In this document: positions 8,537-36,762 of the stretch, piece by piece | Layout: every line of letters begins with the position of its first letter | Position numbering within the stretch: the stretch's first letter is position 1 | From: Capsaspora owczarzaki ATCC 30864 | Lineage: Eukaryota; Opisthokonta; Filasterea | NCBI RefSeq assembly: GCF_000151315.2 | Contig: NW_011887294.1 | Span: 58,361 to 122,360, forward strand | Reading direction: 5' to 3' | Length of the DNA stretch: 64,000 nt | Program-made: the position numbers and the translations under genes | Notes under the pieces: generated by a model | Told to the model about the DNA's origin: nothing | Seen by the model: only the letters and a program-made list of their open reading frames with translations | The model's database searches: none

Positions 8537-9861
8537 TCATTGGAAGCGGTCGCTGATATCTTGCCAGTTGAATCGCAGATTGTGCATGGTTTTCACTTTT
8601 AGCGGCCAAACTTTGACAGGATTGTCGCTGTACACCGGCAATTCAACAACAGGGGGAGTCAGTGGCAAAAAAAAAAAAAAAAAAAAAAGCGAAAGACAAA
8701 AACGAGAACATACCACAAGTCGAGCGTGCGCACCATAAACAGCTCAATCATATCCTCTGGAATGGCGTCGAGCTTGTTGTTACTGCAGCCACACGAACAT
8801 TCAGAAGTGAGCAATTTGTGTTTCCTTTCAAAGTCGCAATCTCTCGCTCTGGGTCGCACCTCAAGTCAATCTCTTTGATTTCGCCAATGTTCTTGGCCAG
8901 TTCGACCAAAACCTCCGGCTGCAGTCGCACCAGCTGGCAGTGTGACAAGACCAGTTTTTCAACCTTGTTCATCTGGGAGATGATTGGCGGCAATTCCTTA
9001 AACTTGTTGTGGTGGATTTGGAGGTTGGTAATGTTCTGCCCAGAACAAAAGCACACAAAAGCGTCGCATCATCAAAATGAGACAACTGATAACAGAAAAA
9101 AAACCAAAAAACAAAAAAAAGAGACGTCGTTGAGCGGTCTCGTTGTACTCACCCGGCACTCCTTCAGCCCCGGTGGCAAGGACGTTAGCTGGTTGCCGTC
9201 AGCGATGAGATCCGTGAGATTGTGGAGCAGCCGAATGGCGGGATTGATCTCTAGCAACATGTTGTGCGAAATGTCGAGCATGCGCAGCTGCATGAGTGCG
9301 CCAATCTGGTCTGGCAGCGCAGTCAGCTGGTTGTATCCAATGTTGAAGCGGCGCAAGTTGGAGAACATGGCAACCTCGGCCGGGAGTGACTTGATTTCGT
9401 TGCCTGCGAGGTTGAGCTCGGTCAGGTTGACGAGCGTCGTCAATCGCAACGGGAATTCGCGAATGAGGTTGGCGTTCAGCGTCAAGATGGTCATTCCAGT
9501 GACGTTGAACACGCTTGACGGTATGCTTTTGAGCTCGGCGTAGCTGTGTGATGGCATTCAGGAATGATGGTGATGTGTGAGTGGAGCAAATCAGCTGAGA
9601 GGAGCATTTTGTGTTTTTTTTTTGTTTGGTTGTTTTTGTTGTTTTCGTTACCCCAACCCCCCAAACCCCCTCCATCTCCCATCTCCCAATCTCACGCCCT
9701 TTCCCCTCGCAGCTCTTCTTGCAAATCCCTCGTGTTATTTTGTGTGCTTGTTTGAATGCTCGTCGCAGTCAGCACTCAACCCCCCCCCCTCTCAACCGAA
9801 CTCTCCTTTGCCTGACTCCCACCCGCTCCAATTGCGGTAGATTGAATCCGCTTTTTTTTTT

Positions 9862-34116: not shown

Positions 34117-36762
34117 ATGGGAACAAGAGGATTTACCTTTTGTCTGCTGCTTCTGCTGCTGTTCTGCGCGACGAACCACGTCGAGTTGGCACAGGCGGCC
34201 AATGATGCTTGCACCGTGTGCACTTGCTCGGGAACTGATGTCAATTGCTATGGCCAATCTCTCACAGCCATTCCGAGTGGAATCCCAACCCACACAACAC
34301 AACTGTAGGTGTTGCTGTTACGCTAAAACTTGAGGCAAAGCGTTGCCCTCCTGACTGACTAGCATATGGTCAATAGGACTCTCGACCTCAACTCGATCAC
34401 TAGCATTTCGGCAAACGCATTCACCGGTCTTACTGCCCTGACTTACCTGTAAGCAAGCAACTGACAGGAAAGGCTACGAGCAGACGGCTCACTCATTTAT
34501 CACTCCATCGGTAGGTCTCTGCAATACAATCAAATCACCGGCATTCCTGCTGGCACATTCACCGGCCTGACTGCGCTGACTGCCCTGTAAGCACGCAAAA
34601 ACACGATGTACCACGCACAACCGGCTCACTCGTTTCTGACTCTATCGGTAGGTTTTTCGCCTACAACCAGATCACCAGCATTCCTGCTGACACATTCACA
34701 GGCCTGACTTCGCTGACTTACCTGTAAGCGAGCAAACATGATGTATCACGTACAACCGGCTCACTCGTTTATAACTCCATCGGTAGGTCTTTGCAAAACA
34801 ACCAGGTCACCAGCATTTCGGGAACCGCATTCACCGGCTTGACTGCGCTGACTTCCCTGTAAGCGAGCAAAAACACGATGTATCACGCACAACCGGCTCA
34901 CTCGTTTCCGACTCTATCGGTAGGTCTCTGGGACCCAACCAGATCACCAGCATTCCTGCTGACACATTCACCGGCCTGACTGCGCTGACTACCCTGTAAG
35001 CGAGCAAACACATGATGTACCACGCACAACCGGCTCACTCGTTTATAACCCCATCGGTAGGTCTCTGCAAAACAACCAGATCACCAGCATTTCGGGAACC
35101 GCATTCACCGGCTTGACTGCGCTGACTTGCCTGTAAGCGAGCAAAAACACGATGTACCACGCGCACTCGTTTCTGACTCTATCGGTAGGTATTTCGGCTC
35201 CAACCAGATCACCAGCATTCCTGCTGGCGCATTCACAGGCATGACTTCGCTAACTTACCTGTAAGCAAGCAAGCACATGATGAACCACGCACAACCGGCT
35301 CACTCGTTTATGACTCTATCGGTAGGTCTCTGTATCTCAACAAGATCACCAGCATTTCGGCCAACGCATTCGCCGGCCTGACTGCGCTGACTTACTTGTA
35401 AGCAAGCAAACACATGATGTACCACGCACAACCGGCTCGCTGGTTTCTGACTCTATCGGTAGGTCTCTGTTCAACAATAAGATCACCAGCATTCCTGTTG
35501 GCGCATTCACCGGCCTTACTGGGCTGACAGATCTGTAAGCAAGCAACCGACAGGAAGGCTACAAACAGACGGCTCACTCGTTTGCGATTCCATCTTTAGG
35601 TATCTAGACGGCAATCAGATCACGAGCATTCCCTCTTCTTCATTCACAAACCTGACTGCGCTGACTGCCCTGTAAATATGAACTCTCGTTGCACGCATTC
35701 GATCCGCTTCTTACTTTTTGCGTACCTGCAGGGCTTTGCAAAACAATCCTATCACGACTTTGCCACCTGGTCTGTTCAAGGGCTTGCCAAATGGCTTGGC
35801 GTTGTCGAATCCAAACCCATATCTGGCCCCCAATAACTTTACTTTTGGTGGCAACACTGTTGCTCCGCCCAGCACCTACGGCAATGCATCGAAACCATAC
35901 AGTAAGAGTTCGAGATGACCACAATTCCCATTTTGTTCACTTTGCTGACATTTGTGTTGTTGTAGAGTGTGATACAGTCTGTGCCACCTGCTATGCTGTG
36001 GGGTCCAGTGCGTGTTGCGAGACCAATTGCCTGTACTGCACTTCATCGTCTGTGTGCACTCAGTGCTATGACGGTTATGGCATGCTGGGTGGATCTTGTG
36101 TTCCTCTTGCTTCCATCGCTTCGGTCGCTTCGGTTGCGTCCACGCAATCTGCCTCGGCAGCCTCGATGGCCTCTGATATTTCCGCTGCCTCGGCGTCCGT
36201 TGCCACTGTGTCCTCAGCGTCAATTGCCTCGCAAATGTCTGCGTCCGCCGCCAGTGCTTCATCTGTTTGGCAGACATCGGCTGCATCTGCTGCGTCCAAT
36301 GCTCCAAACGAGTCAAGCGATGCATCTTCTTTGCCCATTATTCTTGGAGTCATTTTTGGCGTGCTAGGTCTTCTCTTGTTGGTTGCGCTGGTTGTGGCCC
36401 TTCGGCGTCGTCGCTCGCCAAACGCATTGGCAACCAGCAGCACGGCCACCAAGCTCCGCGAATCGACACCCGGCTCGGAGCCGACCTATCAGGTTGTCGA
36501 TAACAGCGGAACTGTGGCAAACGTTGTGAATCCAACCTACAGCACGTTGTCTGCGACTGGCGACCACGCCTTGTACGAACACGTTGGCTCACAGCCTCAA
36601 GGTCCTACGGGCTCGGAGCAAGTGTATGCCGAAGCATCTGCACCCGGCGTCGAGTACGCTGATCCTTCGCTGCCCAATGCCTCGTCTGTCCGTGTGCCGC
36701 CCACGCCCTCAACAACCACTTACTCGACGATCTCCGGTGTAGTTTCCACCACCAGACGGTAA
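34117..36762 (+). CDS. Single-pass LRR receptor with tyrosine-rich cytoplasmic tail
   Basis: Thirteen exons: 34117-34304; ten LRR exons of exactly 72 bases starting at 34377, 34515, 34652, 34787, 34924, 35061, 35189, 35326, 35463 and 35600; then 35732-35901 and 35966-36762. Total 624 residues. Signal peptide (core FCLLLLLLFCA), a Cys-rich N-cap (CTVCTCSGTDVNC), ten or eleven 24-residue LRRs of type NQITSIPADTFTGLTALTxL, and a Cys-rich segment (CDTVCATCYAVGSSACC, CLYCTSSSVCTQCYDGYG). A long Ser/Ala-rich stalk and one membrane span (about 482-506) followed by RRRR complete the outer part. The cytoplasmic tail has six Tyr in short motifs: TYQV, TYST, LYEHV, VYAE, EYAD, TYST (about 532, 549, 561, 578, 588, 610). 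No kinase domain. All LRR introns split a Leu codon (CT|G), so exons can be added or skipped without changing frame. Ligand unknown. Confidence 0.9.
34377..35671 (+). repeat. Tandem array of ten LRR exon-intron units (period about 137 bp)
   Basis: Each unit is a 72-base exon plus an intron of 56-66 bases. Introns are as alike as exons: nearly all read GTAAGC(A/G)AGCAA...ACCGGCTCACTCGTTT...CATCGGTAG or TCTATCGGTAG. In the middle, ISxxAF exons alternate with IPAxxF exons, and the intron ends alternate too, giving a two-unit period of about 274 bp. The first and last introns (34449-34514 and 35535-35599) share a different middle (GACAGGAA...GGCTAC...CAGACGG) and look less homogenised. Confidence 0.92.

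Follow-up and report, generated by a model that had tools for sequence, protein, structure and literature searches.

Leucine-rich repeat receptors of Capsaspora owczarzaki: a gene family built from arrays of 72-nt exons and its probable diversification through exon turnover

Background

Genes in which every leucine-rich repeat (LRR) occupies an exon of its own raise the question of whether such exons generate new receptors or are the trace of ordinary duplication. One of these genes lies in the window, a stretch of 64,000 nt from Capsaspora owczarzaki ATCC 30864 (contig NW_011887294.1, positions 58,361 to 122,360 of the forward strand). A first-pass annotation, made from the letters of the window alone, described a homogenised array of ten LRR exons with a two-exon period. 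We compared this array with its relatives in the genome. The window gene appears to belong to a large C. owczarzaki family of cell-surface receptors with LRRs, and the family probably diversifies by frame-neutral exon turnover together with selection on the concave face of the repeats, displayed on either a kinase or a tyrosine-bearing tail.

Results

Architecture of the receptor gene

The receptor gene spans 34117-36762 on the + strand and is composed of 13 exons, whose spliced translation returns 624 residues and one terminal stop. Its parts are as follows.

34117..34304, + strand: exon 1, signal-peptide-like leader (by eye) and LRRNT (PF01462, residues 34-57)
34377..34448, + strand: E1 (ISANAF), 72-nt LRR exon
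34449..34514, + strand: intron I1, 66 nt, same intron type as I9
34515..34586, + strand: E2 (IPAGTF), 72-nt LRR exon
34587..35462, + strand: stretch with the interior introns I2-I8, within E2-E9; 56-65 nt each, alternating 3' ends
34652..34723, + strand: E3 (IPADTF), 72-nt LRR exon
34787..34858, + strand: E4 (ISGTAF), 72-nt LRR exon, 96% identical to E6
34924..34995, + strand: E5 (IPADTF), 72-nt LRR exon
35061..35132, + strand: E6 (ISGTAF), 72-nt LRR exon
35189..35260, + strand: E7 (IPAGAF), 72-nt LRR exon, 90% identical to E3
35326..35397, + strand: E8 (ISANAF), 72-nt LRR exon
35463..35534, + strand: E9 (IPVGAF), 72-nt LRR exon
35535..35599, + strand: intron I9, 65 nt
35600..35671, + strand: E10 (IPSSSF), 72-nt LRR exon
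35732..35901, + strand: exon 12, final incomplete LRR and the sequence that follows the array
35966..36762, + strand: exon 13, Cys-rich stretch, Ser/Ala stalk, transmembrane segment and cytoplasmic tail

All features of an extracellular LRR receptor are present, namely a leader (recognized by eye), an LRRNT, tandem LxxLxLxxN repeats and a single transmembrane segment, placed by hydropathy at about 36337-36405 in exon 13. Besides LRRNT, Pfam returned LRR_8 on the protein with an E-value of 1.3e-69. Kinase, ROC and COR domains, sought up to E 1, had no match in the C-terminal 322 residues, and no tyrosine kinase lies near the gene among the listed matches of a genome-wide kinase search. Elsewhere in the window, a separate LRR_8 match (9255-9428, - strand, 45.1 bits) belongs to another gene. 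Close behind the receptor gene follows the next gene, from 37283 onwards on the + strand, which appears by eye to start with a signal-peptide-like leader.

As the first-pass annotation had stated, the array (34377-35671) is formed by ten LRR exons of 72 nt that are split in the same Leu codon. Each exon encodes one 24-residue repeat, is preceded by AG and is followed by GTAAG, or by GTAAA after the tenth. The Leu codon is cut after its second base (phase 2) at every array junction, into CT and G in general and into TT and G after E8. Exon 1 likewise closes on the CT of a split Leu codon, and phase 2 within Leu also holds for both introns that flank the array (34305-34376 and 35672-35731); the last intron of the gene has a different phase. 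The array introns measure, in order, 66, 65, 63, 65, 65, 56, 65, 65 and 65 nt.

All ten exons have lengths that are multiples of three and the same phase 2, which confirms that each of them is frame-neutral. Since the exons are self-contained LRRs, whole repeats could be swapped without damage to frame or fold. The same property would also suit the regulated skipping of exons, and the arrays might chiefly serve to produce isoforms with fewer LRRs. Published passages on Capsaspora splicing report 191 cassette exons, an overlap with protein domains for two thirds of the differentially regulated exons, and an enrichment of tyrosine and Ser/Thr kinases among the genes that host them; those same passages do not name LRR exons (PMC3870316). 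The enrichment in kinase genes makes splicing a question worth testing for these arrays, and the brown-algal LRR exons are described as alternatively spliced in passages of PMC11378527. On the other side, intron retention is given as the dominant form of alternative splicing in Capsaspora in the passages of PMC5560861, and short reads placed on exons this similar could mimic skipping. We hold it possible, but doubtful, that skipping is the main use of the arrays.

Duplicated units within the array

The interior introns I2-I8 are 87-95% identical to one another over ungapped columns, 9 nt being absent from I6, and exon identity across the array ranges from 65% to 96%. Introns as alike as exons indicate that exon and intron were duplicated together as whole units, as had been proposed; the contrary pattern, in which exons would far exceed introns in similarity, is absent. 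The closest units are those of E4 and E6, whose exons are 96% and whose flanking introns about 95% identical.

The first-pass annotation had further proposed that the unit of duplication was a pair of exons, with a period of about 274 bp. Tandem Repeats Finder gave the 274-nt period a score of 1508; the 137-nt period was scored twice, at 1304 and 1178, and the spans covered were not quite the same. Intron-plus-exon units have a mean identity of 0.827 when two places apart (lag 2) and of 0.786 when adjacent (lag 1); the P-value for lag 2 is 0.025 (1000 permutations of the unit order, six lags computed). This value would fail correction if lag 2 had not been the prior claim, and we count it as modest support. 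When the test was extended to 26 arrays with up to six lags, at a stage when the exons skipped by our first search pattern were still absent, it amounted to about 150 tests, so that chance alone should yield several P-values of 0.01-0.03. Firm periods (P-value of 0.002 or less) were of one unit in array L010, of two and four units in L020+ (lag-2 P-value 0.002, lag-4 P-value 0.001), of four units in L017 and L021, and of five units in L017 and L019. The two-exon period has modest support in the window array and better support in L020+, and it is not special, as other arrays repeat in fours or fives.

The finer pattern was likewise described too regularly. The alternation of ISxxAF and IPAxxF repeats holds from E3 to E9, but E1-E3 read IS, IP, IP and E9-E10 read IP, IP. 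At the 3' ends of the introns the first base of the motif does alternate between A and C across I1-I8, and the motif itself departs from the quoted one in I4 (CCGAC) and in I7 (ATGACTCT).

The term 'homogenised' survives in part. Units of the window gene are closer to each other than to those of L011, L009 and other arrays. When compared to L010, the nearest paralogue, synonymous and intron differences are similar (0.272 and 0.167 within the gene, 0.291 and 0.164 against L010 units), so that special homogenisation of the gene is not supported against this paralogue. For arrays in general, two units of one array resemble each other hardly more than units of different arrays do. The distinctness of the first and last introns had been ascribed to gene conversion or unequal crossing-over in the interior. 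I1 and I9 are 83% alike, each being 67-78% like the interior introns, and the simpler reading is that both are of a second intron type; the interior is no more alike within the gene than it is to L010. The two intron types are mixed in several genes of the subfamily, interior positions included. The closest counterparts of I9 stand at the array end in L009 (0.93) and L011 (0.96), whereas in L010 this preference is marginal (0.81 versus 0.80 elsewhere).

A family with two kinds of cytoplasmic domain

A DNA search found at least 98 places matching the window array in the 27.5-Mb Capsaspora genome (40 of 67 candidates scored), and the idea of an array unique in the genome was rejected. The same genome has matches to T-box and integrin-beta proteins and many to tyrosine kinases, as fits Capsaspora. 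The analysis covered the window and 20 fetched regions, 14 further regions lying outside it. Here the exon pattern, which demanded an LRR-like reading and a length divisible by three and missed other exons, identified 29 arrays of at least three exons, with 363 of 365 exons measuring 72 nt; after gap filling, 373 of the 379 exons in the 29 arrays had this length.

We grouped the matches into 40 array loci and assigned to each the kinase or tail match lying less than 3.5 kb downstream on the same strand, that is, by distance and not by gene models. Among the matches listed, at least 18 loci have a PF07714 kinase, 17 have a tail of the window type, none has both and five have neither; the tails derive from 36 of 48 matches and the kinases from the listed part of 176, so that a kinase may have gone unlisted at a few of the 22 loci counted as kinase-less. 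In DNA, the window array exceeds 80% identity both to L009, which bears a kinase, and to L010, which does not, so that each kind of cytoplasmic domain is found behind similar ectodomains. Tail matches occur also where the array search found none, for example at three sites on contig C9 near 1.30 Mb, and the tyrosine-tail family may have other or more diverged ectodomains there.

The window tail contains six tyrosines, five of which are kept in all nine aligned tails (that of the window gene and eight taken from fetched regions in which the match covered more than 80 of the 119 residues). The motifs are PxY (NPxY in seven of nine) and, in nine of nine, LYE, YA, the fourth tyrosine and a C-terminal TxYxx(I/V), which we take, from the definitions of ITIM and ITSM, to resemble an immunoreceptor switch motif. 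The dN/dS of exon 13 is 0.55 against L010, 0.29 against L023 and 0.35 against L016 (255-257 codons), indicating constraint on this final exon. We infer that the kinase-less tail is a candidate substrate or docking platform for tyrosine kinases of the family or for others.

Selection on the concave face

To measure selection, we used repeat positions 24, 2, 4, 5 and 7, which we assume from LRR geometry to be concave. These positions were fixed before omega was fitted, and trees were built from introns and the other codons, leaving the concave codons out. Concave omega values, which are rough because exon recombination breaks the assumption of a single tree and the fitted trees, with 18-49 changes per codon in this class, are long, were 3.2 in the window subfamily (38 units, P-value 0.0004), 4.1 in L017/L019/L021 (77 units, P-value 2e-5) and 6.3 in L020+ (16 units, P-value 0.0007) under F1X4, and 13.6, 4.9 and 9.3, respectively, under F3X4. 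The window array alone (nine units) returned 4.2 under F1X4 (P-value 0.064) and 5.7 under F3X4 (P-value 0.031). An earlier run gave concave values of 2.8, 4.6 and 5.2, together with 1.1 in the L027 set; the latter does not differ from 1, and positive selection in that set is unsupported. Omega was 0.46-0.73 in the convex class and 0.19-0.46 in the core, and in 24 random sets of five convex positions it ranged from 0.23 to 1.44, with five sets above 1.

We also compared young copies directly. In three independent pairs of segmental duplicates, the concave replacement rate was 1.04 (0.48-1.88) and 0.95 (0.44-1.99) relative to introns and silent sites, with zero concave changes in two of the three pairs; concave change nevertheless exceeded that in the rest of the exon (P-value 0.005, Fisher test, same three pairs). 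The 22 youngest within-array pairs, chosen by similar introns and in 19 cases from one array, had a concave pN of 0.098, a pS of 0.034 and a convex pN of 0.004. The idea of a stronger constraint on introns than on silent sites in all arrays was rejected, as a shuffled-intron control placed the saturation of gapped intron distance near 0.30. Owing to this saturation the intron-ratio results in wide divergence bins were set aside, together with those of a further comparison; the latter had also chosen its pairs by low intron distance, which biased the distance downwards.

These data bear on the alternative that the arrays reflect ordinary neutral exon duplication, with the variation in exon number and at concave positions being relaxed drift and having no role in recognition. 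One LRR per phase-2 exon is known elsewhere, gonadotropin receptors included (passages of PMC11378527), and both the concave pN of the segmental duplicates, near pS and pI, and the L027 omega agree with drift. Against this, three of the four exon sets reject a concave omega of 1, with values above all 24 convex sets, and concave replacement exceeds silent change in the youngest pairs, most of which come from one array. We consider neutral duplication rather unlikely as the full account. The results suggest instead positive selection at concave positions, a grade that we do not raise because the segmental duplicates changed at the neutral rate and because recombination and saturation may inflate omega. 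We read the contrast between the omega values and the segmental duplicates as a sign that diversification is mainly coupled to exon duplication or exchange.

Exon number in close paralogues

On contig C16, the duplicates L017 and L019 share a flank that is 99.0% identical over 786 nt, as well as a neighbouring stretch, 97.7% identical over 3589 nt, with another LRR gene whose array has eight exons in each copy (L018 and L020-). Their own arrays differ, with 34 exons in L019 and, in L017, 39 together with one whose reading is broken. On the other side the two loci differ, with no kinase or tail match listed behind L019. The relative on C18 has 45 exons; it is without a five-exon block of L017 and has further unmatched units. 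A pair on C1 is 99.4% identical over 876 nt of array, with flanking pieces at 86-94%, and differs in detected exons (eight versus six). Compared in this way, the loci point to an exon turnover that is between paralogues, not between individuals.

Between units 32 and 33 of L017 lies an LRR-like exon with stops, at a place where L019 and L021 have units. Given this broken reading, some members of the family may be decaying; L017 may be such a member, or the broken exon may be unused. The 3' end of the L019 array (about C16:34994) adjoins an inverted array match at C16:34621-34996 on the + strand.

Assembly errors in repetitive DNA are a quite improbable source of these differences: five array loci do lie less than 7 kb from a contig end (ends of C4, C9, C16 and C18, in a count that leaves out C13, C15 and C19), among them L017 at 3.7 kb and L021 at 5.2 kb, but 35 kb separate L019 from such an end, and more than 110 kb in the case of the C1 pair; the unmatched units are not copies of the units next to them, and aligned units on their flanks are in many cases 0.9-1.0 identical. 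The loci near contig ends may have a subtelomeric placement.

Exon number that varies between close paralogues, together with a concave omega above 1 in three of the four sets, argues for a role in receptor diversification, and we read the arrays as diversifying ectodomains. To this extent, the data support the part in receptor diversification that the first-pass annotation had proposed for the window array.

Discussion

The reading that we favour, diversification by exon turnover under selection, would proceed as follows. Misaligned recombination between similar units, either unequal crossing-over or conversion and involving one to several units at once, would add, remove or exchange whole LRRs and leave frame and fold intact. 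Selection would then favour amino-acid changes at the concave, presumably ligand-facing positions, with the remainder of the repeat being held. One kind of ectodomain is presented on two mounts, a receptor tyrosine kinase or a kinase-less tail with phosphotyrosine-type motifs, and the tails would be phosphorylated by kinases of the family or by other tyrosine kinases.

More speculatively, and with the odds in our view against it, the family may form a two-armed recognition repertoire, in which recombining and selected LRR ectodomains on kinases or on NPxY- and immunoreceptor-switch-like tails recognize prey, symbionts, host or kin. If this speculative reading is true, receptor families that exchange exons and signal via tyrosine motifs would predate animals. 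If the ectodomains diversify against ligands, it becomes testable whether phosphotyrosine receptors served the recognition of others before animals arose. Transfection and genome editing have been published for Capsaspora, according to the titles of PMC6001378 and PMC9170242.

In the literature searched (titles, abstracts and passages, with most subscription papers outside it) we found no report of LRR exon arrays in Capsaspora. Modular LRR exons that keep the frame are on record from brown algae and ciliates; in Capsaspora, a single-celled holozoan relative of animals, a 72-nt module of this sort builds the sensing part of receptors that end in either a tyrosine kinase or a tyrosine-bearing tail, a setting that is probably new. 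Work by Zambounis in 2012 is said to have dealt with the brown-algal ROCO genes. In Ectocarpus and kelps, the passages of PMC11378527 describe ROCO genes with 72-bp phase-2 LRR exons, exon shuffling, selection at concave sites and alternative splicing. The likeness to the window array lies in the single LRR per 72-bp exon and in the phase, and probably in the shuffling of exons. On concave selection the Capsaspora data are mixed, with omega above 1 in three of four sets, P-values of 0.064 and 0.031 for the window array alone, and segmental duplicates not above 1. The products differ, the brown-algal ones being ROC-COR GTPases and the window one a membrane receptor ectodomain with ROC and COR unmatched behind it.

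Tetrahymena LRR genes, as described in part of PMC6564038, number in the thousands and have 90-bp exons, phase-2 introns, long arrays, a subtelomeric concentration and an intron-associated retrotransposon. Uniform exon length, phase-2 introns and long arrays are shared with Capsaspora, where five loci lie near contig ends, whereas the Capsaspora exons measure 72 nt and the loci number in the tens. A Capsaspora kinase with N-terminal LRRs, CAOG_004404, has been reported, with exon arrays unmentioned in the passages of that source (PMC6993872). Like the kinase-bearing paralogues, it combines an LRR ectodomain with a kinase. From LRR receptor tyrosine kinases in general, the window gene differs in its missing kinase domain, which at least 18 of the 40 paralogous loci have downstream.

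Among animal receptors, the introns of gonadotropin receptors are all in phase 2 (passages of PMC11378527). The solved structures closest to the window protein in LRR sequence are LGR5 ectodomains, a likeness that may reflect a shared LRR consensus only, and chains of the variable lymphocyte receptors (VLRs) are also among the solved relatives. LGR4, LGR5 and the gonadotropin receptors are seven-transmembrane proteins with a stable exon number. Lamprey VLRs combine LRR modules, vary on the concave face and are assembled somatically from cassettes. Diversity from combined LRR modules and variation on the concave face would be common to VLRs and to the Capsaspora family, but the former are put together somatically and the exons of the latter belong to the germ line. 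As for tails of the ITIM and ITSM type, the TxYxx(I/V) motif is present in all nine aligned Capsaspora tails, where its phosphorylation and binding by SH2 domains are putative.
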